Below, in pieces: positions 8,406-35,993 of a stretch of 35,993 bases of DNA (positions within the stretch are counted from its first letter, which is position 1; every line of letters starts with the position of its first letter). Where the stretch lies: NCBI GenBank assembly GCA_015657575.1, contig JACDQN010000084.1, positions 1-35,993 on the forward strand, given 5' to 3'. Origin of the DNA: Sphingopyxis sp. Its GTDB lineage: Bacteria; Pseudomonadota; Alphaproteobacteria; Sphingomonadales; Sphingomonadaceae. The position numbers were made by a program, and so were the translations under genes. The notes beneath the pieces are model-generated. The model worked only from the letters and a program-made list of their open reading frames with translations, did not search any database and was not told the origin of the DNA.

Positions 8406-9604
8406 ATGGCCCGGCGGCTCGCCTATGCCGCCATCGCTTTCAGGAGCGCCCTATTGTTCGAAAACCTGACCATCTCGGCCATTCCGGATGCCGATGAAGC
8501 GCTTCGTCCCGCCATCAGGACGATTGCGCAGAGCGTTGCGGCTACGCTGCCACCGGATCGGCGCGCGCGATCCTGGTCGGGGTTCGACGCGGCATTCAGT
8601 CGTGAACTGGGCGCGGCCGGCTTCCTCGGCCTGACCTTGCCCGAACGCTATGGCGGCGGGGGGCGCGGCGCTTTCGCCCGGTTCGTCGTCGTCGAGGAAT
8701 TGCTCGCCGTCGGCGCCCCCGTCGCGGCGCATTGGATCGCCGACCGGCAAAGCGCGCCCTTGATCCTCCGTTTCGGCAGCGAGGCACAGCGGACGCATCA
8801 CCTTCCGCGGATATGCCGCGGCGAAACGGTCTTTTGCATCGGCATGAGCGAGCCGGGTTCGGGCTCGGATCTTGCGAGCGTCCGTTCGCGGGCCGAGCGA
8901 TGCGCCGACGGATGGCGGCTCAACGGCCAGAAAATCTGGACCACATACGCACATGCTAGCGACTATATGATTGCGCTCGTCCGGACATCGGGGCGGCCCG
9001 AAGATCGCCATGCTGGTCTTTCGCAGCTGATCGTCGACCTCAAGGCTCCGGGCGTGACGATCCGTCCGATTGAGGATCTGGCGGGGGACAGCCATTTCGC
9101 TGAGGTCTTTTTCGACGATGTGCTGCTGCCGCACGACGCGCTCATCGGCGAAGAGGGTGCGGGGTGGAGCCAGGTTTCCGCCGAACTCGCGTTCGAACGA
9201 AGCGGTCCCGAGCGCATCTATTCCAGCGTGATCCTGCTGGACGCCTGGGCCGGGCATATCCGGCGCGTCCGCCCCCACGACACCGCCGCCGCCGAATTGG
9301 CGGGCGCGATGATGGCGCGGCTCTCCGTCCTTCGCGCCATGTCGCTGGCATGCACAGCCCGGCTCGCCGCAGGCGAAAGCCCGGTCTTCGAGGCGTCATT
9401 GGTCAAGGACCTGGGGACCAGTCTGGAGCAGGAAATGCCCCTGGCGATCGGTGACGATCTGGCGGGCCATCCCGACGAGCCGATCGACGAGAATCTGCAC
9501 CGCACGCTCGTCTATATGACCCATATCGCGCCCAGTTTTTCGCTTCGCGGTGGAACCCGGGAGATATTGCGCGGGATCATCGCCCGCGGGATGGCCTCCG
9601 GTGA
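8406..9604 (+). CDS. Acyl-CoA dehydrogenase, large subunit-like; C-terminal frame break
   Basis: The protein shows the full acyl-CoA dehydrogenase fold. It has LGLTLPERYGGGGRG in the N-terminal helical domain, FCIGMSEPGSGSDLASV and WRLNGQKIWTTYAHASDY at the FAD-contacting beta domain, and FSLRGGTREILRGIIARG at the C-terminus. The ATG at 8406 has AGGAGG only 3 bases away; a TTG at 8454 with AGGAG at 7 bases may be the true start (383 residues). In the given sequence the frame runs on to 10433 as non-family sequence. One missing C in the CC at 9598-9599 would end it as MASR at TGA 9602-9604, overlapping the GTG start of the next subunit. The enzyme dehydrogenates acyl-CoA at C2-C3, passing electrons to ETF. 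Confidence 0.88.
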
Positions 9605-11053: not shown

Positions 11054-12643
11054 ATGACGGAACCCAATCGGCCCAGTCTGACGCAGGGACTGCGCCGCGC
11101 GATCCGTTTGCGCCCCGACGGTGTGGCGGTCATCGACGGCGCCAAGCGTTTCTCGTGGCGCGAGACCGCCGACCGTGTCGCTCGCCTGGCGGCCGTCTTG
11201 CGCGCGCGGGGCCTGGTCGATGGCGGCCGCGTTATTCTGTTGTCGCTGAACACGCATCGTTCGATCGAGACCTTCTTTGTGGCCATCCACGCCGGCGGGG
11301 TGGTGGTGCCGCTGAACCACCGTCTGTCGGAGAGCGAATTGGTTTCGCAGGTCGCCGATGCCGCCCCGTCGATCATCATTCTGGGCGATGGCTTCGGACA
11401 TTTTGCGTCCGCATTCGGGCAGGCGGCGGGCGGAGATCCCCCCATTATATGGGCCGGCGAGACCGACGCGTCCGGCAGGGCGGTCGCTTTCGAGGCGGAG
11501 CTGGCGGCCGCGACGCCCATCGACGATGCCGGCCGTGAGGGCGACGACCTGGCCTGCATACTCTATACCAGCGGGACGACGAGTGCGGCGAAGGGCGTGA
11601 TGCTCAGCCACATGAACCTCATCGCGAACACGCTCAACACCGTCGGCGCGCTCGACCTGGACGAGACCAGCGTGCATCTTCACCACGGGCCGTTGTTTCA
11701 CGTAGCGCCGGCGGCGCGGCTTTTTTCCGTGACCCATGTCGGTGCGACCCACGTCTTGCTGCCGCGCTTCGTCGCGCGGGAGGTGATTGCGGAGATCGAG
11801 CGGACGGGCATAACGCACGCGACCTTCGTGCCGACGATGTTCCGCGCGCTGCTCGACGAACCGGCGCTTGCCGAAAGCGACATGCAATCGCTCAGCGTCA
11901 TCTCCTATGGATCGGCGCCGATGCCCGAGGCGCTGCTCGACGAGATGATGGCCGCGCTTCCCGGGGCCCGCTTCCTCCAATCCTATGGCATGACCGAATT
12001 GTCGCCGGTCGTGACGATATTGGGATGGCGCGACCATTTGCCCGAGAATCGCAGGCCCGGTCTTCTTCGCTCGGCGGGGCAACCGGTCCTGCTGGCAGAC
12101 GTCGCGGTGGTTGGCCTCGACGGAAACCGGCTGAACGATGGACAAACCGGCGAGATCGTCGCGCGCGGGCCGAACCGGATGCTCGGATATTGGAACAAGC
12201 CCGAACTGACGGCCGAGGCGCTGCGCGGCGGCTGGATGCATACCGGGGACGCCGGTTACTTCGACGAATATGGCTATCTCCATGTCGTCGACCGGCTCAA
12301 GGACATGATCATATCGGGCGGCGAGAATGTCTATTCGCAGGAGGTGGAAAATGCCATCGCGACGCACCCCGCCGTTTCGGAGTGTGCGGTGTTCGGTCGC
12401 CCCCATCCGCATTGGGGAGAGGCGGTGCATGCGGTCGTCAGGCTCAAGTCGGGCGCTCAAGTGGAGGCGCAAGGGATCATTGATTACTGCCGCGACCGCA
12501 TTGCCCACTATAAATGTCCGCGGACGCTGGAAATTCGAACCGAACCGATGCCGCTGAGCGGGGCCAACAAGATACTGAAAGCCAAATTGCGGGCGGAACT
12601 GCTGTTAAGCGAGGCAGGATTGATGGGCAGGAGCGGGCAATAG
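11054..12643 (+). CDS. Acyl-CoA synthetase (AMP-forming)
   Basis: This is a 529-residue ANL-superfamily ligase with all core motifs. They are ILYTSGTTSAAKGVMLSH (A3, phosphate loop, around residue 170), SYGMTE (A5), GWMHTGDAGYFDEYGY (A7), VDRLKDMIISGGENV (A8 hinge) and the C-terminal GANKILK containing the catalytic Lys. It adenylates a carboxylic acid and transfers the acyl group to CoA, feeding the dehydrogenase pair upstream. Substrate preference cannot be read out. The gene ends the plus-strand block of the catabolic island. Confidence 0.93.
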   Translation: MTEPNRPSLTQGLRRAIRLRPDGVAVIDGAKRFSWRETADRVARLAAVLRARGLVDGGRVILLSLNTHRSIETFFVAIHAGGVVVPLNHRLSESELVSQVADAAPSIIILGDGFGHFASAFGQAAGGDPPIIWAGETDASGRAVAFEAELAAATPIDDAGREGDDLACILYTSGTTSAAKGVMLSHMNLIANTLNTVGALDLDETSVHLHHGPLFHVAPAARLFSVTHVGATHVLLPRFVAREVIAEIERTGITHATFVPTMFRALLDEPALAESDMQSLSVISYGSAPMPEALLDEMMAALPGARFLQSYGMTELSPVVTILGWRDHLPENRRPGLLRSAGQPVLLADVAVVGLDGNRLNDGQTGEIVARGPNRMLGYWNKPELTAEALRGGWMHTGDAGYFDEYGYLHVVDRLKDMIISGGENVYSQEVENAIATHPAVSECAVFGRPHPHWGEAVHAVVRLKSGAQVEAQGIIDYCRDRIAHYKCPRTLEIRTEPMPLSGANKILKAKLRAELLLSEAGLMGRSGQ

Positions 12644-26225: not shown

Positions 26226-26678
26226 ATGCATCAATGTGCCTTGGGGGGACGTGTGACTCGGAGTTTCCGATTTTACGCTGCGGTTGCAGCGAGCCTGGGA
26301 TGTATCCCGGCAGCTTATGCGCAGGATCTGGTGCACGAACCGATCAGCCCGACCTTCGGTGGCAATCCGTTCAACTCGAACCATATTCTCGGCACTGCAA
26401 CGGCGCAGAACGACTATCGCGACCCACGCGCGACGAGCTCCTCGTCGCAGGCCGACATCTTCGCGCGTCAGCTTCAGTCGCGGCTGCTGTCTTCGCTGTC
26501 GTCGCAGATCGTCGATGCCATCTTCGGCGACAACCCGCAGGAAAGCGGGACGATCAGTTTCGGCGGCCAGACGATCGATTTTTTCCGCTCGCTGGACTCG
26601 GTGACCCTCACGATCCGGAACGATGAAACCGGCGAAGAAACCAAGATCGTCGTTCCGCTTTTCGTCGAGGTGAAGTGA
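26226..26678 (+). CDS. csgF: Curli assembly protein CsgF
   Basis: This is a 150-residue precursor from ATG 26226 with GGGGGA upstream; a GTG at 26253 behind GGGGGGAC would give 141 residues with a cleaner signal peptide (FYAAVAASLGCIPAAYAQD). The mature start DLVHEPISPTFGGNPFN is the CsgF signature, the segment that inserts into the CsgG pore. TATAQNDYRD and ISFGGQTIDFF follow. CsgF caps the CsgG channel at the surface and couples export to nucleation. The stop overlaps the csgG start (TGATG). Confidence 0.9.
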   Translation: MHQCALGGRVTRSFRFYAAVAASLGCIPAAYAQDLVHEPISPTFGGNPFNSNHILGTATAQNDYRDPRATSSSSQADIFARQLQSRLLSSLSSQIVDAIFGDNPQESGTISFGGQTIDFFRSLDSVTLTIRNDETGEETKIVVPLFVEVK

Positions 26679-27646
26679 TGCGCCGCCTCGCCCGGATCGC
26701 CCTCGGCCTTCTCTGCGCCTCCTCGCTCGCCGGCTGCATGACCGTCGGCAAGAGCGGCCGCGACACTTTCGCGCCGAGCACGAGCCTCGCCTATTTCCCT
26801 AAGAAGACGCAGACGCAGCTACTTCTCAACGACCTGCCGAAACCGCAGCGTCAGGTCTCGGTCGCGGTATATGGTTTCACCGACCAGACCGGACAGTTCA
26901 AGCCGACCGAAGCCGGGCAGACGCTGTCGCGCGCCGTCACCCAAGGCGCCGGCTCGATGCTGGTCAAGGCGCTGCAGGATGCAGGAAGCCGGTCCTGGTT
27001 CACGATCGTCGAGCGCGAGCGTCTCGATAATCTCCTGAAAGAGCGGCAGATCATCACCGAGATGCGCAAGCGCTACCTCGGCGAGGAAGAGATCGATCGC
27101 AAGGCGCTTCCCGCCTTGCTGTTTGCCGGGATACTGCTCGAGGGCGGCATCGTCGGTTATGACAGCAATACGGTGACGGGCGGCGCGGGTGCGGCCTTCC
27201 TCGGGATCGGCGCGCGGACCCAATATCGCCAGGACACGGTCACCGTCTATCTTCGCGCCGTATCGGTCCGCACCGGCGAGGTACTGACTACGGTCACGGC
27301 GTCGAAGACGATCGCCTCGCAGGCTATTGGCGCGAGCGCTTACCGTTTCGTCGCATTCAAGGAACTGCTCGAGGCCGAATGGGGGATCACGAGCAACGAG
27401 CCCGATCAGGTGGCGCTCCAGCAGGCAATCGAGAAGGCGGTCTATGCGCTAGTGATGGAAGGGGTCGAACTCGACCTCTGGAAATTCCAGGACATGGGCG
27501 TAGCAGGTCCGCTGCGGGACTTTTATCGCCGCGAACGCGACGGTCTCTATGAGGCGCGCGATGTGCAGGAGGCCGTCGAAAAAGCGGGCTCGCTCTCGGC
27601 GCTCAAGATCATCAAGAACAAGCAGAAGGAGAAGGAGGGCTCCTGA
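26675..27646 (+). CDS. csgG: Curli secretion channel lipoprotein CsgG
   Basis: This is a 323-residue precursor, starting at GTG 26675 or ATG 26678. The lipobox SLAGC places the lipidated Cys at ~21. Family segments are VAVYGFTDQTGQFKP, GSMLVKALQDAGSRSWFTIV, ERERLDNLLKERQII, LLFAGILLEGGIVGYDSN with its transmembrane hairpin, and QYRQDTVTVYLRAVSVRTGE. CsgG nonamers form the outer-membrane pore through which curlins pass. The C-terminus is longer and more charged than in enterobacteria. It is coupled to csgF and followed after 190 bp by the curlin gene. Confidence 0.95.
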   Translation: MMRRLARIALGLLCASSLAGCMTVGKSGRDTFAPSTSLAYFPKKTQTQLLLNDLPKPQRQVSVAVYGFTDQTGQFKPTEAGQTLSRAVTQGAGSMLVKALQDAGSRSWFTIVERERLDNLLKERQIITEMRKRYLGEEEIDRKALPALLFAGILLEGGIVGYDSNTVTGGAGAAFLGIGARTQYRQDTVTVYLRAVSVRTGEVLTTVTASKTIASQAIGASAYRFVAFKELLEAEWGITSNEPDQVALQQAIEKAVYALVMEGVELDLWKFQDMGVAGPLRDFYRRERDGLYEARDVQEAVEKAGSLSALKIIKNKQKEKEGS

Positions 27647-27810
27647 AGACATAAGAGGGGGGCAGGCCAATATCTCCGGGCCGGCCTTTAAAACATAAGT
27701 CGTTGGAGAAAAGGCACGCAAAGAAGCGGCAACTTCGATGCGTGCGAATATTAGGCTGCGATAACCTGAAAATGCTCGGCGTCTCTTGCGCCGTGGCACG
27801 CTCGTTATCG

Positions 27811-27824
27811 CCTTTTTGAAAAGG
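27811..27824 (+). promoter_or_regulatory. Hairpin over the curlin ribosome-binding site
   Basis: CCTTT-TTGA-AAAGG forms a small self-complementary element whose 3' arm is part of the AAAAGGTG Shine-Dalgarno of the large curlin (ATG 27836). Its stability is low, so any effect would be modest, for example temperature- or protein-dependent. Confidence 0.3.
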
Positions 27825-27835
27825 TGATGCAATCC

Positions 27836-29410
27836 ATGAAAAGCGTATATCTTACCGCCGTCTCGGCCGTCGCTCTCGCGATCTCGGCTCCGGCAATCGC
27901 CCAGTCGACATCGACCCTCGACCAGTCGGGTCTCGACAACTCCGGCACCGTAACCCAGCTCGGCTCGAACACGAGCGATCTCGACCAGACGGGTAACGAC
28001 AACGTCGCGACCGTCGCGCAGGACGGCGAGAACAGCTCGACCATCTCGCAGGACGCGCTCGGCGCGGGCGCTTTCGTGACCCAGACGGGTACCGGCAACA
28101 GCTCGACGATCGACCAGGACGATGCTTCGACCAACAACTCGATCAATCTTCCGGAAGATCCCGAAGCGACCGTCGTCCAGAACGGCACCGACAATGCTTC
28201 GAACGTCCGTCAGGCTTCGGTGGCGCCGAGCTTCAACCTCGTCGCCAATGCAACGCAGACCGGCGATCTCAACGATTCGAACATCGAGCAATATGCGAAC
28301 GGCCCGGGCTTCACCGGCACGATCCGCACCAACGTCACGCAGACCGAAGCCTCGATCTCGGACGTGATCCAGTCGGCAACGGGCGACAATGCGAAGAATC
28401 TCTTCGCGACCGTCGTCCAGAGCGCTTCGACCTCGACCGTCACCCAGACCGCAACGGGCACCCAGGCTGTCGGCGCGACCGCGATCGTCAACCAGCAGGC
28501 CGGTTCGACCTCGACGATCGACCAGACGATCGATGCCAACGATGCCGGTGACCTGTACGCCAACGTCCGTCAGGACAATGGCGCCTCGTCGACGGTCGAA
28601 CAAAGTGCCTTCGGCAACGGTTCGAACAACGCCGATGCGATCGTCGTTCAGGACGGCGCGAGCAGCTCGTCGATCACGCAGACCTTCGAGAATGTCGGTG
28701 CGAACACCTTCCTCGCCAATGTGACCCAGACCGGCGACGATCACTCGTCGATCATCACGCAGGACGACAAGGCGCCGCTGAACCAGGCGGACTCGAACCT
28801 GATCGCCACCGTCGTGCAGACCGGCGAAGGCAACAGCTCGATCATCGATCAGGACAACAAGGGCGCGACCGCGATCGTGACCCAGGCTGGCCTGAACAAC
28901 GACTCGTCGGTGATCCAGGACGGCGCGGGCCTCAGCGCAGACGTCTTCCAGGCGAACGAAAACAACGACTCGTTCGTGACGCAGATCGGCGCGCTGAATT
29001 CGAGCGTCGATGTCGAGCAGCTCGGCGAAGGCGGCACCTCGACCGTCAATCAGCTGGCCAATGCCCGCAACGACACGGCAACCGTTCGCCAGCTGGCCGG
29101 TTCGATCGGCAACGAATCGACGATCAACCAGTATGGCGCGACCCCGAGCGCTCCGGCGTTCAACGTCGCGACCGTCGAGCAGGGCGGCGAAAGCAACGAA
29201 TCGCTGCTGACCCAGTCGGGCCTCGATAACGTGGCATTTGTCGGCCAGTATGGCATCGGCAACGAAAGCATCGTGACGCAGGTCGGTCTCGACGGCGGCA
29301 ACAGCGCCACCGTCAACCAATATTCGGACGGCAACGTCTCGAGCGTGAATCAGAATGGTGCCGGTAACGTCGCCATCGTCACGCAGGGCGCGGCTCCGAC
29401 GGCCAACTAA
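27836..29410 (+). CDS. Large curlin-repeat amyloid subunit (CsgA-like)
   Basis: The start at 27836 (MKSVYLTAVSAVALAISAPA, then IAQS) gives a signal peptide behind AAGGTG. The 524-residue product is more than three times the length of E. coli CsgA (151). It consists almost entirely of curlin-type units with the spacing S/T-x5-Q-x-G-x2-N-x-[AV]-x3-Q, for example STLDQSGLDNSGTVTQLG, SDLDQTGNDNVATVAQDG and ESIVTQVGLDGGNSATVNQ. At least twenty units are visible, some separated by short irregular insertions. Gln and Asn ladders stack in the amyloid core. It would be exported through CsgG and form the main fibre. Codon use is uniform through the repeats. Confidence 0.92.
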   Translation: MKSVYLTAVSAVALAISAPAIAQSTSTLDQSGLDNSGTVTQLGSNTSDLDQTGNDNVATVAQDGENSSTISQDALGAGAFVTQTGTGNSSTIDQDDASTNNSINLPEDPEATVVQNGTDNASNVRQASVAPSFNLVANATQTGDLNDSNIEQYANGPGFTGTIRTNVTQTEASISDVIQSATGDNAKNLFATVVQSASTSTVTQTATGTQAVGATAIVNQQAGSTSTIDQTIDANDAGDLYANVRQDNGASSTVEQSAFGNGSNNADAIVVQDGASSSSITQTFENVGANTFLANVTQTGDDHSSIITQDDKAPLNQADSNLIATVVQTGEGNSSIIDQDNKGATAIVTQAGLNNDSSVIQDGAGLSADVFQANENNDSFVTQIGALNSSVDVEQLGEGGTSTVNQLANARNDTATVRQLAGSIGNESTINQYGATPSAPAFNVATVEQGGESNESLLTQSGLDNVAFVGQYGIGNESIVTQVGLDGGNSATVNQYSDGNVSSVNQNGAGNVAIVTQGAAPTAN

Positions 29411-29453
29411 GCGGCTCGGAGGGACGGCGCTGGCCCGCCCCTCCATTCCGGCG

Positions 29454-29483
29454 TGCCGGGTCCTCGCCTGCGAGGGCCCGGCA
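29454..29483 (+). terminator. Intercistronic hairpin between the two curlin genes
   Basis: TGCCGGG-T-CCTCG (29454-29466) pairs with CGAGG-G-CCCGGCA (29471-29483) around a four-base loop, with a single T/G pair in the stem. No U-run follows, so it probably acts as a partial terminator or RNA-stabilising element. Either would keep more major-subunit than minor-subunit mRNA. Confidence 0.55.
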
Positions 29484-29526
29484 TGTTCGGAAACGATATG
29501 AAGAGCGATTTTCACAGGAGCATGTG

Positions 29527-30141
29527 ATGCGCCATCGATTGTTTTTTAGCGCTGTGCTGGGGCTTGCCGGAATCGAGGCGGCCGCAGCCGAGCCACTGCC
29601 CACGGACGCGGCTGAGGAAAGCGGCGCCTATATCGCGCAGATCGGGACCGGGAACGAGGCCGAAATCGCTCAGGATGACGCGCGGGCGCGCGCGCGGATC
29701 GTTCAGGATGGCAGCGGCAACAAGGCGACGATCGTCCAGAAGGGAAGCGGCGCGCATCGGGCTGAACTCGTTCAGAGCGGAGCCGACCATGTTGCGGCGC
29801 TCGAACAGGATGGAGGCGGCGCCAATATGATTGCGATTCTTCAAGCAGGCGGCGGCAATCACGCGCGGATCAACCAGTTCAACGACGGCGGCCTCGTCAA
29901 CACGTCGGTGGCGAGTCAGCAGGGACAGAATAATATCCTCTCGCTCGTCCAGGATGGCGCCGACAATCAGGCGAATCTGGTGCAGAATGGCGACGGCAAT
30001 GCTATGACGGCGCTTCAGTCCGGATCGACCAACAGGCTCGACTGGACGCAGAACGGCAGCGGGCTGTCCGACCTCCATGTCGAGCAACAGGGCGGCGCCG
30101 CAATCCAGCTCGTGCAGACCAATGGGCCGGGCGGGCAATAG
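29527..30141 (+). CDS. Curlin-repeat protein (CsgB/minor-curlin-like)
   Basis: This is a 204-residue precursor with AGGAG 7 bases before ATG 29527 and a signal peptide (MRHRLFFSAVLGLAG up to AAAAE). Curlin units such as YIAQIGTGNEAEIAQDD, RIVQDGSGNKATIVQKG and NLVQNGDGNAMTALQSG give about eight repeats. It is shorter and more charged than the large curlin and is encoded directly after it, matching the nucleator CsgB in role or acting as a second subunit. The csgB assignment is functional inference only. Confidence 0.88.
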   Translation: MRHRLFFSAVLGLAGIEAAAAEPLPTDAAEESGAYIAQIGTGNEAEIAQDDARARARIVQDGSGNKATIVQKGSGAHRAELVQSGADHVAALEQDGGGANMIAILQAGGGNHARINQFNDGGLVNTSVASQQGQNNILSLVQDGADNQANLVQNGDGNAMTALQSGSTNRLDWTQNGSGLSDLHVEQQGGAAIQLVQTNGPGGQ

Positions 30142-30152
30142 GGGACAGGCGG

Positions 30153-30725
30153 ATGAGCTTCATGCTGACGACCTTGTTGTTTTTTGCAGAGCCCGCGACG
30201 GTGGCGGTCGAGCAGCTCGGTGCGGCCGACACGCATGAGCCGATCGAGCAGGTCGGCAGACGAGGAGCGTCGGCGTTTGTCGAGGACGCGTCGATTTCGA
30301 ACGCTCCCGGCGGCGATGTCACGCAACTGTCCGTTTCCGACAACGAAATCTCATTGGCACGAGTCGATGGTATCGACCGTTGCAGCGCCGAGCTTTTGTC
30401 TGCTGATCAAAAAGCCTATTGCAGCCGCCGCATCGAAACCCGCTCGGCGGAGTTTCGCTCGGAACTCACGACACCGCTGACCCTTGAGCAGAAGCTTATC
30501 GGCGAGCGGCTTGTCCCGCTGCGAGGTCTTGAAAATGCTGCGCGCGCAAGCGCCGCGTCGCCGACGAACAGCGATGTTCAAGCGCTGGCTTCCGTAACGC
30601 TCGCGCCGACGCCTGTCGGTTTGCCCGACGATGCGGCGAAGTCTGCGCCCGGAAACCTGTCGACAGAAACGCAGGCGCTCGTTGACGCCCTTGTGTCAAA
30701 GCTCTCAAATCCAGGAGGCCAGTAG
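30153..30725 (+). CDS. Unknown protein of the curli operon
   Basis: This is a 190-residue product with AGGCGG upstream, 11 bp after the minor curlin. The N-terminus is short and hydrophobic (MSFMLTTLLFFAEPATVA). VEQLGAADTHEPIEQVGR and DVTQLSVSDNEIS preserve the Q-x-G/Q spacing of one or two decayed curlin units. Next comes DRCSAELLSADQKAYCSRRI, whose two Cys may pair, and then a disordered Ala/Pro-rich tail. No family is recognised. The position suggests an accessory: a fibre-capping, anchoring or chaperone protein. Confidence 0.7.
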   Translation: MSFMLTTLLFFAEPATVAVEQLGAADTHEPIEQVGRRGASAFVEDASISNAPGGDVTQLSVSDNEISLARVDGIDRCSAELLSADQKAYCSRRIETRSAEFRSELTTPLTLEQKLIGERLVPLRGLENAARASAASPTNSDVQALASVTLAPTPVGLPDDAAKSAPGNLSTETQALVDALVSKLSNPGGQ

Positions 30726-30734
30726 GCGTCTCCC

Positions 30735-30757
30735 TATTTTCGCCTCCAGCGAAAATA
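30735..30757 (+). terminator. Terminator of the curli operon
   Basis: TATTTTCGC (30735-30743) and GCGAAAATA (30749-30757) are perfect 9-bp arms around CTCCA, placed 10 bp after the last curli-operon stop. There is no long U-run, but no other gene starts downstream for 700 bp. Confidence 0.6.
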
Positions 30758-31460
30758 CCAGACTTCATGTGACAAGTCAATCATGCTATTGAAATAGAAT
30801 GACTTTTAACAGAATTTTGACCTCCAAAAATTGGCCAGCAATCACCCAGCAATCACCGTTTTCAGGAGCGAAAAAACCTCGTGGCCACGCGCAAATCTGC
30901 TCTTCGATCGGACCTTTCCAAGACCAATCTTGACGACTCTCTGATGGCGAAGGTCACCGGTTCAAATCCTGTAGGTTGCCTCTCATATCCTCCCTCAGTT
31001 AACCTCTCCAAGGTCGCGACAAGTACCGTGCCGTGGGTAAGAATCTGGTGCCTCTCATCAGAAAATTGGATCAGTTCAGGCTAGCACCGCCGGACAGGAT
31101 CAGACGATCTAGCGATCGCCGGTATCGCAGCGCGCAACCCCGCTGGCGCAGCTTTGGACGGCATACTCCAATTAGATCCATTTTCGGTCGCAGTTTTGGT
31201 TGCTGATTGCGGTCGATCTGTTGGAAATAGGCGCGCGCCCGTACAGTCAACTGGGCGAGTGACCGGGTTCCGCCACGTATGTCCAGGCAATTGCTAAAGG
31301 TGGTGGTACGTGCTCCAGACGCGCGTTTCCTTTGCTCGGTCACTTTTTCGCGATGCAACGCCTAGAATAATAATTGGATTATTAAATAGTAGCGCTCTGA
31401 CGCGAGGCATACTTTTCAACTGCGACTCATCTTGGTCGCAACCTTGAAAAGGAACGTGAC
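30758..31460. other. Gene-poor region between the curli and lasso clusters
   Basis: No convincing gene is present in about 700 bp. It contains a tandem duplication of CAGCAATCACC (30836-30846 and 30847-30857), a tRNA T-arm-like fragment (30950-30985) and an AT-rich stretch with AATAATAATTGGATTATT near 31366. A TGCGAC/GTCGCA inverted pair follows just before the lasso precursor. The last part probably holds the lasso promoter. Confidence 0.5.
30950..30985 (+). other. tRNA 3'-end-like fragment (T-arm)
   Basis: ACCGG-TTCAAAT-CCTGT has the stem and TTCRANY loop of a tRNA T-arm, with one mismatch in the stem, followed by AGGTTGCCTCTC where an acceptor 3' strand would lie. No matching 5' acceptor, D-arm or anticodon arm is found upstream. 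It is a relic or an attachment-site copy, not a functional tRNA. Confidence 0.35.
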
Positions 31461-31592
31461 ATGAAAACGCATGACGACATCATCGATCTCGGCGCCGCCC
31501 AGGACGAAACCCTCGGCGCGCTGCCGTCGGGCCAGCAGGACGTACAGCCCGGGGACAAGTTTATCCTCGGCGGCATCAGCGCCGACGATTGA
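31461..31592 (+). CDS. Lasso peptide precursor (sphingopyxin-like)
   Basis: This is a 43-residue precursor behind AAAAGGAAC. The leader is residues 1-18 and ends DETL, with the obligatory Thr at position -2. The core begins at Gly19: ring GALPSGQQD, Gly1 to Asp9, which would close as a nine-residue macrolactam. The tail is VQPGDKFILGGISADD, giving a 25-residue core. The bulky K/F/I/L run at core positions 15-18 is the likely steric plug. The C-terminal GGI-S/T-ADD matches my recollection of sphingopyxin I from Sphingopyxis alaskensis, while the ring differs strongly. The stop at 31592 overlaps a possible TTG start of the B gene, and the processing genes follow directly. Confidence 0.92.
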   Translation: MKTHDDIIDLGAAQDETLGALPSGQQDVQPGDKFILGGISADD

Positions 31593-31648
31593 CTGACGCG
31601 TGGCGTGCAGTCCTCGCACTGCACGCCACCGCTCCGTCGCGCGCTTCC

Positions 31649-32293
31649 ATGATGAATGTCATCACTTCAGCTGCCACGCATTGGTGCAGAGTCGGCGGCA
31701 CCTTCGTCTTTCTGGACTTGTCCCGCGATCGCTATTTCATGCTTGAGCAAAGTGCGGCTGATCGCTTTTCCCGGATTGTCGCCGGAGCGCAAGAGGAGGG
31801 TGACAATGATTGGCTTGCCGCACGCGGCTTGCACCATCTGGCGCCGCCGGTCGATCAATCTAGTTCCGAAAGGATCGCTCCGACCAGCAGTGTTCTCGAG
31901 GAGCCAAATCTCGAAAGGGCTTCGGCGGTTGAGACAGCCCGTTCGGTATGGGTCCTGGCCCTAGCTCAGCGGCATGTTCGGAAACTCGCTCTAATGGAAA
32001 TTCTGCCTAATCTTTTGCACGGCGTGCCAGTAGCTCCGCACGTTCAACGGTCGGATGCACGCCAGGTAGCCGCGGCGTTTAAGCGAGCGCGTCACTATTT
32101 TTCCGGCATGGATGAATGCCTCAGCCGCGGCGTTGCAATGCGCCGTGTGCTGGCCGGAAAGGGGTGCGAGGCCCGGCTGGTGATCGGCGTAACTTTGCCA
32201 TTCGCCGCGCATTGCTGGGTGCAGCTGGGCTCGGCGGTATTGACCGATCCGCTCGATGTGGTGACCCCCTACACACCGATATTGGTCGCCTGA
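31649..32293 (+). CDS. Lasso peptide biosynthesis protein B (RRE + transglutaminase-like protease)
   Basis: The product is 214 residues from ATG 31649, or 234 if translation begins at TTG 31589, which overlaps the precursor stop. The N-terminal ~80 residues (THWCRVGGTFVFLDLSRDRY) form the leader-binding RRE/PqqD-like B1 domain. The C-terminal half is the B2 cysteine protease: Cys in MDECLSRGVAMRRVLAGKG, His in PFAAHCWVQLG and Asp in VLTDPLDVV form the triad. It removes the leader so the cyclase can use the new N-terminal Gly. Its stop overlaps the start of C (TGATG). Confidence 0.92.
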   Translation: MMNVITSAATHWCRVGGTFVFLDLSRDRYFMLEQSAADRFSRIVAGAQEEGDNDWLAARGLHHLAPPVDQSSSERIAPTSSVLEEPNLERASAVETARSVWVLALAQRHVRKLALMEILPNLLHGVPVAPHVQRSDARQVAAAFKRARHYFSGMDECLSRGVAMRRVLAGKGCEARLVIGVTLPFAAHCWVQLGSAVLTDPLDVVTPYTPILVA

Positions 32294-34013
32294 TGCCGGG
32301 GTACTTTCGCATCGAGATTTCCGAGGCGTCGGGACAGGCTGATCGTGACAATGGCGAAGCGGACCCACCCGCCTTATCGCTTCCAGGCGCTCGGCTCTGG
32401 TGCGATCGACAGCCGCTTGCCCTGGGTGGGCATGGATATCTGATCGGCCACCTGTTCGAGCGAGGCGAAATGAGCCGCCGCGTGTTGGATCTGCATGAAA
32501 CGGCGGTAACCAGAATGGCGGCGTCTAGCGGCCGGTCGCTCGTGTCCGACTATTGGGGCGGCTATGTGTCCATCTTGGCGCGGCCCGGTGGAGGTCTCGC
32601 GATATTTCGCGACCCGTCCGGGTTGTTGCCCGTCTATTACCGCGCCGATGGGGCGGGCGTCACAGCGTCGAGCGACGCTGCCGATCTCGGCAGACGTGGC
32701 GGCGTCGATTATCCGGCAGTTGCGCGGTTTCTGGCTAATGGAGGCGCGCCTAGCCGAGAAACCTGCCTCGAAGGTGTCCAGGTACTGCTTCCAGGGGAAT
32801 GTCTGATCATTACTTCGGGATCGCGTCGTCTGGAAAGCTGGTGGTCACCGTGGGATTGGACGCAGGTCCCCCACAAGCGGTTCGAGGTGGCCGCCCGTAA
32901 GCTTCGCGCCGTGGCGCTCGACTGTATCGAAAGCTGGGCGTCCTGCTTTGATTCCATATTGACCGGCGTATCTGGCGGCCTCGATTCCTCGATTGTCGCC
33001 GGCGCCGCATCTCGCCGCGCCGCCGCGCTTCATTGCCTGACGATGATCGAAGACGATGCGATTGGCGATGAGCGCCGCTATGCTTCCATTCTCGCCAAGG
33101 CGATTGGCGTTCCCTTGCTTGAAGCCCACTATGACCTCGGCAAGGTTGAGATTGATCGCGCCGTGGCGCCGCACCACCCTTGGCCGCACGCGCCATTCTA
33201 CATGCAGGCAATCGCGTCGGCTCATGAAGAGCTCCGCCGCGAGCATCAAATCGATGCCTTCTTCTCGGGCAATGGCGGGGACAATATCTTCTGTGCGATC
33301 CGCAGCGCCTCGCCGTTCGTCGATCGTTTCATGGCGCAGGGACCGCGTCACGGGCTTTTCGACACCCTGCGCGATTTGAGCGATCTGACGGGAGCCAGCG
33401 GTGCGACCATCTTGCGGCACGCCTGGGATCGCTATCGTGACTGCAGCCGGCCCGTAAAACTTCATCGCGACACTTCCGGGCTTTCTTCCGCCGCGATCGC
33501 CGAGCTGGATGTGCCGAGGCGCCCCATCCATGGATGGAAGCGCCCGAAGGCACGCCGCCCGGCAAGGCGGCGCATGTCAGGCTGCTGGCGCGCGCGCATC
33601 GCAGCATCGAGCTGTATCCCCGCCGCTCCCATCCGCAGCATGTCGCGCCGCTCCTGTCGCAACCAATCGTCGAAACATGCCTGTCAATCCCGACATGGCA
33701 GTGGATCGAGGGCGGCAGGGATCGCGCCGTCGCTCGGGCGGCATTCAAATCCATCGTCCCTGTGCAATTATTGCGCCGCACGTCCAAGGGCGGGCCGGGC
33801 GGCTTCATGCAGCGCATATTCCAGGCGAACGCGGAACATGCCGGCGACCTGCTGCGCACTGGCCTGCTGGCGCGGGCCGGTCTGCTCGACCTCAGGACCT
33901 TGGAAGGAGCCTCGCAGCCGACGGTGGCGGGCTTCGAAAAGGCGCAGCGCATCCTCGCACTTTGCGCGGCGGAAAGCTGGGTTCGTTGGTGGACGGATGT
34001 TCGCGCGTCATAA
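32293..34013 (+). CDS. Lasso peptide cyclase C (asparagine synthetase-like), one apparent frame break
   Basis: The gene starts at ATG 32293 and is ~573 residues after correction. The N-terminal domain (GYVSILARPGGGLAIFRDPSG, LLPVYYRADG) is a glutamine-amidotransferase-like fold without the catalytic N-terminal Cys. The synthetase domain has the PP-loop TGVSGGLDSSIV and SGNGGDNIF, used to adenylate the Asp9 side chain. Near 33515-33530 the frame moves back by one. One G restored after CCG (about 33513) gives DVPEAPHPWMEAPEGTPPGK, which then continues HVRLLARAHRSIELYPRR to TAA at 34011-34013. It is co-translated with B and ends 2 bp from the convergent peptidase fragment. Confidence 0.87.
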
Positions 34014-34015
34014 GG

Positions 34016-34675
34016 CTATCGCCGCTCGGCGCCTCGCGTCTGCACACACCTTGTTTTCCATTGCGCCGCCATTTTCGCCCAGCGGTCGAATGCGCCTCTG
34101 TCATCCAGATCCCGGTCGCGCCGATCGCGAAGCCAGAAGTCGAACCACGCCAGATTCTCTTGCATCGCGCGCAGCCGATTGGAGGGGATGTGAAACAGAT
34201 GGGTCTCATCGGTGGCGGTGGTCTCGCCAGGATAGAGACTGATCTGCGCAGGAACCTTTGCTTCGCGCAGCGCGGCGTAGAAATCGATCGCTCCCGCAAA
34301 GGGAGAAGCCATTTGCTGAAGGACCGGAGCACACGCCCTATCGGCACGGAGCGAGGGCGACAGCTGGCGATAGGCGTCGAGGTAACGACCTGAAGGTGGG
34401 CCGCCGAAGACGGCGTGATACCCGTCTTTCGGATCTGAATAGGATGCGGGTTCAAGATAATTCCCGTCCCCGCTGGAAGCAGCGCGAAACATCTCCGATT
34501 GGGTCATCGCGACATTCACCATCTGCGATCCCCGACTGTACCCGGCAATGCCAATGCGGTCGGGATCGACAATGCCTTCGCTTGCCAACTCGGCGATCGC
34601 GTCTTCAAAACTATAGACGCCGTTGATCCAGATCAGCTCGCGCAGCTTTTCGGGACCGAGTGTGCCTGGGCCGCC
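34016..34675 (-). pseudogene. S9 peptidase, probable lasso peptide isopeptidase, C-terminal part only
   Basis: Only the alpha/beta-hydrolase end is present. It includes WINGVYSFEDAIAELASEG, VDPDRIGIAGYSRGSQ with the nucleophile Ser, LSPSLRADRACAPVLQQ, and TDETHLFHIPSNRLRAM with the catalytic His, then AWFDFWL. The family has an N-terminal beta-propeller of about 400 residues, which is absent. Upstream of about 34640-34680 the DNA instead encodes the PhyH gene in another frame. Lasso isopeptidases linearise imported lasso peptides and are found beside sphingomonad lasso clusters. The fragment has no start of its own and is probably inactive, unless the junction is an assembly error. Assignment to the isopeptidase subgroup rests partly on context. 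Confidence 0.75.
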
Positions 34676-35040
34676 CGACCCTGGTCGCGGTGCGGGAACT
34701 GCCGCACTTCGCCCGGATGGATTTCGATCGCCTGTGTGAGGTTGAGCTGGATCCGGTCGCAGCCGGTGCCGAGAATGGTCTCCACGGCAGAAAGGATGAG
34801 CGGGTTGAGTACCAGTGCGGCCATGTGCTCCGATCGCTTGAGCAGGCCGCCGAAGCGCTTTGTGCGGCGGCCGTAGAAATTGCCTTCACAAAAGGGCGTC
34901 GCGGCGAAGATGGGGTCGAGATCCCTTGCGAGCGCATGGACACGCGCGACCGCCTCGTTGCGAATTATGCAATAGCCTTTGCGGCGCAGCTCCTCGAAGA
35001 GCAGGCCAGGCAGATCGGCTTCGGTCAGATCCTTTTTCAT
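34633..35040 (-). pseudogene. Phytanoyl-CoA dioxygenase (PhyH)-family protein, truncated
   Basis: The start at 35040 (MKKDLTEADLPGLLFEELRR) has GGGAGG upstream and overlaps the luxI stop by 4 bases. The conserved N-terminal half includes GYCIIRNEAVARVHALARDL and QLNLTQAIEIHPGEVRQ, followed by FPHRDQ with the His-x-Asp pair of the 2-His-1-carboxylate iron site. Family similarity stops after HRDQ at about 34681; a non-family tail ends at TGA 34633-34635. The distal His and the 2-oxoglutarate Arg are missing, so the product is ~118 native residues of about 270. A phyH gene downstream of luxI is a reported feature of sphingomonad quorum-sensing loci. Confidence 0.8.
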
Positions 35041-35663
35041 CGCCCCGCCTCCCCGCCTTCTTCGAACTTGAGGACAAGCGGCGCATAGGTGCCGGTGCGC
35101 TGCAATCCGGGGAGCGTATCCTCGTCGATCGCTATGCTGAGGGCGACTATCCGGCACGCGCTATCCCGGTGAACGGGACCCAGCGTGCGGCATGTCCAGC
35201 CAAATTTGCTGATCGTGTGATACCAACCGGCTTCTGCGACACCGACATATTCGCCTATGCCGTGGCGGAGAGCATAGTCCGCCAGCGCGGTGACCAACTG
35301 GTTGCGCGCGTCGCGGCGCTCGGTGGGCGTTTGTCCGGGGTCGAGGCAGAAGCGACTGATCTCCCACACGCCTTCACCGGACGGCGCCCCGTCGGCGCAA
35401 AGATGCGAATAGATGTCGCCGAGCAGGTGCGGCGCCGTGGTTGGCAGCAGCCGCGCCGACGCCCGGTGGCGCAGATCATCGGGATCGAGCAGGATCAGGT
35501 ACCGCGCGTCCGGGGTGTCGAATTGGTCGAGCTCGAAGCGGCCGTCGAGGGCAGGCAAATCCCATTGCAGCTTGTCGATGAAGACCTGCTTGCGGGCGGC
35601 GAACATGGCGCGAAGCGCCGCATTCCCGGGCGCATCCTGCGCCCGCGTGGATTGAGTGATCAT
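35037..35663 (-). CDS. luxI: Acyl-homoserine lactone synthase (LuxI family)
   Basis: This is a 208-residue protein with AAGGAA upstream of ATG 35663. Family positions are visible: MFAARKQVFIDKLQWDLP with the Arg and Trp of the SAM pocket, ELDQFDTPDARYLILLD with Asp/Phe/Asp, and ASARLLPTTAPHLLGDIY. SGEGVWEISRFCLDP carries the Glu-x-Ser-Arg motif. The enzyme makes an N-acyl-homoserine lactone from SAM and acyl-ACP. It lies between luxR (upstream, same strand) and the truncated phyH gene (overlapping by 4 bases). Chain length of the signal cannot be told from sequence. Confidence 0.94.
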   Translation of the reverse strand: MITQSTRAQDAPGNAALRAMFAARKQVFIDKLQWDLPALDGRFELDQFDTPDARYLILLDPDDLRHRASARLLPTTAPHLLGDIYSHLCADGAPSGEGVWEISRFCLDPGQTPTERRDARNQLVTALADYALRHGIGEYVGVAEAGWYHTISKFGWTCRTLGPVHRDSACRIVALSIAIDEDTLPGLQRTGTYAPLVLKFEEGGEAGR

Positions 35664-35762: not shown

Positions 35763-35993
35763 TCAGAGCGGGCGCCACCAGTCATAGACATCCGAAAAGC
35801 CGATGACGCCGTCGAACAGGGCGCAGAGGATCAGCATTTGCCGACAAGGCACTGAATAGCGCTCGCGCGCGATCTTGAGATGACGGACCACGGTCTCTTC
35901 GCTGATGCCGAGGATGCTGGCGGTCTCGCCAGCAGTCTTGCCGCGGGCGGACCAGAGCACGCATTCGCGCTGCCGCTCGGTCAGCGCCGCCCG
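35763..35993 (-). CDS. luxR: LuxR-family quorum-sensing regulator (5' part outside window)
   Basis: The C-terminal 76 residues are present, open to the window edge. AALTERQRECVLWSARGKTA and SILGISEETVVRHLKIARER form the LuxR-type helix-turn-helix, ending DVYDWWRPL. The autoinducer-binding domain would lie beyond the edge. Adjacency to luxI and the lux-box-like site make it the cognate AHL receptor (inference). Confidence 0.9.
   Translation of the reverse strand, partial: RAALTERQRECVLWSARGKTAGETASILGISEETVVRHLKIARERYSVPCRQMLILCALFDGVIGFSDVYDWWRPL

Follow-up and report, generated by a model that had tools for sequence, protein, structure and literature searches.

We consider it likely that the stretch of Sphingopyxis DNA analyzed here (35,993 nucleotides, hereafter the window) carries a recently damaged lasso peptide cluster of the isopeptidase type, similar to those of subterisin, benenodin and sphingopyxin I, on an island that travels among Sphingopyxis species, and that the mechanism in its intact twins is the one proposed below. 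The genes and their order, the lesions as assembled, the sharing of the island, the linkage to luxI and the conservation of a hairpin in the precursor leader were established by sequence comparison.

Precursor gene and predicted peptide

The precursor gene A (31,461-31,592, plus strand) encodes an 18-aa leader and the core GALPSGQQDVQPGDKFILGGISADD, with a predicted Gly1-Asp9 ring, and was recognized from its open reading frame (ORF) and the profiles PF24178 and NF033522. The original prediction of a 43-residue precursor with Thr at position -2, Gly1, Asp9 and a GGISADD tail was borne out by this ORF and by the match to PF24178 (Subterisin, Pfam), which scored above the gathering cut-off (32.6 bits vs. 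27; E = 8.3e-8) in a search that gave matches in none of 14 control genomes. The score against the benenodin family NF033522 (NCBIfam) was 28.5 bits, under the curated cut-off of 33. The features that define membership, namely a leader, Gly1 and Asp or Glu at positions 7-9, were all found in the window precursor, as was Thr at -2. The proposed conservation of Thr(-2) and Asp9 gave a mixed picture: all of the close homologues compared, namely L051, L052 and L138, retain Asp9, but L051 has Ile at -2. Lasso precursors with Ile(-2) are already known (PMC10368454). The L051 precursor (9169-9300, in the same record as G315:C207 and L143) has a core identical to that of the window, with Ile(-2) in place of Thr.

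The mass of the cyclised product, suggested earlier as a check, was calculated, and a monoisotopic value of 2466.2026 is predicted for the Gly1-Asp9 lasso form of the window core, which corresponds to m/z 1234.11 for the 2+ ion. Carboxypeptidase stability, the other check suggested, may be misleading on its own, as a table in PMC7549694 has two "No" entries for sphingopyxin I that may concern this property. The ring string GALPSGQQD was absent from the literature searched, a coverage that excludes most subscription journals, and we class the peptide as a novel representative of an established family. The precursor is not unique to the strain, since it was present in 7 of the 80 genomes of the genus set (one genome per species), counting its own genome and G333, and a profile search found no second PF24178 precursor elsewhere in the genome of the window. 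A search of the PDB with the precursor returned a single match, to a small terminase protein, at chance level (E = 0.13).

The B protein and the gene junctions

Gene B (31,649-32,293, plus strand; PF13471, NF033537) encodes, in an open frame, a Cys protease with a possible RRE. The protease assignment of the original prediction was confirmed by a PF13471 match of 71.4 bits, and the Cys-His-Asp triad is present in the window protein: among 12 B proteins compared, Cys157 and His188 were invariant, and Asp200 was found in at least 90%. An RRE in B is possible; a search of the PDB with a B profile gave as best match TfuB1 (6jx3), weakly and over positions 2-59 (E = 0.0058), which may hint at such a domain, and no RRE match to Pfam or NCBIfam was found in the window protein. 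An AlphaFold2 model of B, built from two sequences, was unusable (pLDDT 38.9, pTM 0.30) and was set aside.

A stem-loop lies between A and B (31,594-31,639, plus strand; -27.2 kcal/mol for 31,593-31,650), and the most likely start of B is at 31,649, 3' of this structure. The stop of B and the start of C share a single base (32,293), so the overlapping gene order claimed earlier holds for B and C but not, in the likely reading, for A and B.

Full-length relatives and the shared island

Five other Sphingopyxis genomes with the window precursor showed the full gene order, in which A-B-C faces a convergent series of isopeptidase, TonB-dependent receptor, FecR, FecI, GntR, PhyH, LuxI and LuxR. All eleven genes were found in L049 of G309 (H053), L047 of G347, L050 of G346 (S. 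italica), L048 and L111 of G356 (LC363), and L112 of G367, although the L112 sequence compared stops inside luxR. The same order was observed on plasmids of S. indica, Blastomonas sp. RAC04 and Novosphingobium sp. PP1Y, the last with one extra gene. In the full-length relatives, the isopeptidase (727 aa) had as its best PDB match 5jrk (624.6 bits), which we take to be the sphingopyxin I isopeptidase, and the original placement of the cluster in the class that has an isopeptidase and no exporter was therefore right.

The left end of the shared island was placed at 30,741-30,750 by blastn and boundary comparison, and the DNA to its left differs between genomes; the pieces of left flank that do align, in G367 and G356, are 81-90% identical. 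Within the island, L048, L111 and L112 were 99.98% identical to L049 (12.4-12.8 kb compared), L050 was 99.05% identical and L047 97.7%. By these comparisons, the cluster lies on a mobile island common to several Sphingopyxis species. To the right of luxR, the shared DNA continues into ORFs that appear plasmid-like by eye (e.g., ParB-like), matches of 75.7-77.6% to the DNA of plasmid pMC4 also extend beyond luxR, and no right end of the island was found.

Several copies have suffered deletions. G333 lacks the genes for the TonB-dependent receptor, FecR, FecI, GntR and PhyH and the end of luxI, keeping A, B, C and the isopeptidase gene from its fourth residue, while in G307 and G362 everything from A to luxI is gone and luxR is kept. 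Counting the window, nine genomes have this island end at near identity, five of them with a full-length cluster and four with a damaged one. In G325, a 94% match of ~250 bases was found at the island left end, with the cluster genes absent from the stretch read.

Some further observations concern the same region. The right ends of the deletions in L124 (G307) and L125 (G362) lie a few bases apart, where an inverted repeat separates luxI from luxR. Close to its left end, the island contains a conserved T-arm-like tRNA fragment (30,941-31,010), and ARAGORN called no tRNA in the window. Positions 26,226-30,141 hold a curli-type locus, comprising a CsgF-like gene at 26,226 (NF007469, 34.6 bits, below cut-off), CsgG at 26,675 (PF03783, 207.3 bits) and two repeat-rich ORFs at 27,824 and 29,524 that are curlin-like by eye; G329 matches 26,227-30,689 at 79% DNA identity.

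Linkage of lasso precursors to luxI

In the window, a gene for a LuxI-type AHL synthase (35,037-35,663, minus strand; PF00765, 71.4 bits), whose product is 100% identical in G309 and G347, is followed by the C-terminal part of a LuxR-type regulator (35,763-35,993, minus strand; GerE, 34 bits), cut by the contig end and corresponding to residues 122-197 of a 197-aa ORF in L049. Across the genus set, PF24178 precursors gave 129 rows in 57 of the 80 genomes, and luxI gave 96 rows in 44 genomes (60 of the 80 searched, E up to 1e-20). Among the 101 precursor rows located in those 44 genomes, 71 were within 20 kb of a luxI row and the other 30 were not, compared with about 2 expected by chance to be that close (a hand estimate from 96 luxI rows in 44 genomes of ~4.4 Mb); these rows share descent and so are not independent, and some luxI genes were counted with two precursors. 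Conversely, 34 of the 96 luxI rows had no PF24178 precursor within 20 kb.

The linkage could also have arisen because two modules with no functional relation are carried as cargo by the same mobile islands and plasmids, with no regulation between them, a reading that is quite conceivable if less than probable. Both luxI and lasso modules occur on mobile DNA, and clusters with the same upstream region are found with no luxI row nearby (G333:C1:3414644, G317:C4 and G224:C50). Against it, the 71 linked rows showed just two of the four possible layouts, none being found in the other two, and the spacing was tight: luxI lay upstream on the same strand in 46 rows, at 1.63-1.89 kb in 41 of these, and downstream on the opposite strand in 25, at 10.1-10.8 kb in 17 of these. 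Inspection of six loci by eye and with four patterns yielded neither an ECF promoter nor a lux box, and no luxI was seen in the stretch examined of the plasmid clusters of Sphingopyxis sp. DBS4 and Sphingobium indicum UT26S, for which the gene table is incomplete. Regarding previous work, PMC9716278 mentions a Sphingomonas strain with a hybrid lassopeptide-homoserine lactone cluster, and phyH adjoining luxI is described in Novosphingobium, Sphingomonas and Sphingopyxis in PMC3704786.

Lesions of the window copy as assembled

Comparison with L047-L050 revealed a deletion junction at 34,680, where 7118 bases of the relatives are absent, corresponding to the rest of the isopeptidase, the TonB-dependent receptor, FecR, FecI, GntR and the rest of phyH. 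To the left of the junction remains a truncated isopeptidase gene (34,016-34,678, minus strand) for the last 220 of 727 residues, 100% identical to residues 508-727 of the full-length protein; an AtxE2-type isopeptidase is thus incomplete in the window and full length in the relatives. The remnant scored 93.4 bits against NF033523 (cut-off 400), a profile that also matches weakly, always under its cut-off, in 11 of the 14 control genomes, so the name of the remnant rests on its full-length twin. To the right, a truncated phytanoyl-CoA dioxygenase gene, phyH (34,681-35,040, minus strand), covers the first 120 of 292 residues; the ORF that contains it (34,636-35,157) had no Pfam or NCBIfam match, and the family name was taken from an annotated plasmid relative.

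The second lesion affects the cyclase gene C. Its N-terminal part (32,293-33,525, plus strand; Asn_synthase, 39.8 bits) is 100% (rounded) identical to L047-L050 over 411 residues, and its C-terminal part (33,522-34,013, plus strand), 100% identical to residues 411-573 of the full-length protein, lies in another frame (Asn_synthase, 36.2 bits for 33,534-34,010). Frame comparison with the relatives located the site of frame loss at 33,515-33,530. The matching cyclase gene of the original prediction therefore stands as to family, both parts matching Asn_synthase, but not as to an intact frame; an intact AsnB-like cyclase is found at full length in the relatives, and no further match to the cyclase query was detected in the genome of the window. 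As to function, the original prediction was incomplete: with the cyclase broken, the isopeptidase truncated, and the TonB receptor and FecI/FecR missing, the assembled window has no working cluster, and no peptide would be expected from this strain.

The assembly consists of 561 contigs and is 77.8% complete, and with such fragmentation each of the lesions could stem from faulty sequencing or assembly, while the missing 7.1 kb could lie outside the assembly. That the strain has an intact cluster, with errors behind both the loss of frame and the join at 34,680, is unlikely though far from negligible, considering that the two lesions lie ~1.2 kb apart in sequence otherwise 99.95-100% identical to L049 and that the contig terminates inside luxR. 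However, only one base is common to both sides of the join, unlike the repeats that usually mislead assemblers (chimeric molecules could still produce such a join). Moreover, the other deletions occur in less fragmented genomes (5 contigs in G333, ~30 in G362 and ~70 in G307), and nothing closely similar to the missing segment was found in the rest of the window's genome, G000 (best 72% over 276 bases). We infer that the source strain probably does carry both lesions.

Upstream region and leader hairpin

The region upstream of the precursor gene (31,293-31,459, plus strand; ~165 bases) was conserved in an alignment of 14 clusters. A sequence-only model of it (R1) was trained on these 14 sequences (nine from Sphingopyxis) and matched 55 places in 38 of the 80 genus genomes; since eight training sequences lie in genomes then searched, hits in those genomes are not independent. 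Directly 5' of a PF24178 precursor were 45 of the 55 hits; five of the other ten precede a precursor-like ORF (L143, L153-L156), and the remaining five were left unused. The model excluded two plasmid clusters that did not align (L140 and L142), and by eye the conserved region was absent from the DBS4 and UT26S plasmid clusters. Proximity of R1 hits to luxI was computed for 34 of the 96 luxI rows and judged by eye for the rest, which altered none of the hits reported here. R1 had no match at the 1.63-1.89 kb spacing of the same-strand layout (46 rows), which may therefore have another leader.

Just 5' of the start codon, a hairpin was predicted in the leader RNA (31,412-31,451, plus strand) by folding and pair counts, with compensatory changes in its inner stem and an outer stem reaching into the Shine-Dalgarno (SD) region; its folding energy was -17.3 kcal/mol (z = -3.72) in the L049 stretch, identical to the window. 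To evaluate its conservation, 52 loci (14 + 38) were scanned, and after setting aside seven with no precursor by pattern, ten identical leaders and L178 (wrong start), 34 distinct leaders remained. In these, 97.5% of the hairpin cells were paired, and three of the seven pairs had changes on both sides (4 cells), counts that are inflated by relatedness. The covariation score was 0.253, compared with at most 0.062 when the hairpin was slid, and was reached by 1 of 500 shuffles; further pair types were not unusual (97 of 500 shuffles as high). The fold z-score averaged -2.86, with 25 leaders at -2 or below and 9 above. The SD region was mostly paired in 20 leaders and mostly unpaired in 14; the column-by-column counts cover the inner stem. 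According to these results, a conserved hairpin can fold in the precursor leader, close to where the ribosome binds. At gathering scores, Rfam gave no match in the window; five sub-threshold matches (E up to 5, 31,200-31,700), one of them on the minus strand over the hairpin site, were not taken.

A dyad in this position might instead be a DNA operator for a LuxR, GntR or other regulator. This is rather unlikely, even though its arms of 6-7 bases give it the size of many operators, there is another palindrome upstream of it, 14 of the 34 SD regions are mostly unpaired, and near matches (up to 2 mismatches) occur elsewhere in some loci, one of the four extra ones in L104 preceding FecI. The hairpin pairs of the 34 leaders include 43 G-U, six other mismatches and no A-C, an asymmetry expected of a sense-strand RNA; moreover, the outer stem reaches the ribosome site in many leaders, and the sole other near match in L049 falls in GntR coding DNA. 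The RNA hairpin is thus the preferred reading.

Proposed mechanism

We infer every biochemical and regulatory step of the mechanism from sequence. In the intact twins, the 18-aa leader would be removed by B and Gly1 closed onto Asp9 by C; the threaded peptide would be imported by the neighboring TonB-dependent receptor and opened by the isopeptidase, with FecI/FecR reporting import to transcription. LuxR-LuxI, with PhyH and GntR, would link the module to cell density, and translation of the precursor would be tuned by the leader hairpin. The copy in the window is probably dead, the pathway as assembled probably stopping at the cyclase. That the two cyclase pieces, otherwise intact, function through programmed frameshifting is extremely improbable, given that a 110-base stretch at the frame-loss site is mutually identical in six other genomes (G309, G367, G346, G333, G356 and G347) and that the cyclase of L047-L051 reads through without a stop.

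More tentatively, the lasso peptides of this branch may be the output of a dedicated circuit, in which LuxI/LuxR would sense density, FecI/FecR would sense re-import and a new class of hairpin could mask the ribosome site; the module would move between species on islands and plasmids and be lost repeatedly, by different deletions that keep luxR, in the way that a shared good would be. For specialists, any novelty may lie in the leader hairpin and in the linkage to luxI, judging from a literature search that covered few subscription journals. With luxI in two fixed layouts, a leader RNA found across different cores, near-identical copies between species and deletions that keep luxR, the system offers handles on what isopeptidase-type lasso peptides do for their makers, since it makes testable whether expression depends on AHL, whether the peptide feeds back and how strains with the intact cluster compete with those that have deletions.

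Comparison with known systems

With respect to the subterisin/benenodin family, the window precursor lies over the PF24178 cut-off and under that of NF033522. The sphingocin cluster (PMC11006600) shares the A-B-C order, a divergent isopeptidase with a TonB receptor and the lack of an exporter, and differs in its core; a transposon in its B gene led to loss of phenanthrene use, and the terms "luxI", "quorum" and "homoserine" do not appear in the main text of that paper. The cluster on pMC4, a conjugative plasmid of Sphingopyxis indica (L138), has the same gene order, including luxI and luxR, and a precursor that differs from the 43-residue one of the window at 5 positions, of which 3 fall within the core; unlike the window copy, it is full length and on a plasmid, with 77.0% DNA identity to G309 over 12.5 kb.

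Locus L104 is, as we take it from its core, the sphingopyxin I cluster of Sphingopyxis alaskensis. A second precursor-like ORF is located between its isopeptidase (E) and C genes (11,375-11,518), and rows matching it at the same spacing were seen in G308 and G347. L104 differs from the window in its core, its C, B and E proteins are 45%, 38% and 42% identical to those of L049, respectively, and it is intact in order where the window copy is broken. It shares with the full-length relatives the order LuxR-LuxI-PhyH-GntR-FecI-FecR-TBDT-E-C-B-A, as well as the upstream region and the hairpin, and the likeness of tails noted in the original prediction was correct, GGI(S/T)ADD being common to the window and the sphingopyxin I locus.
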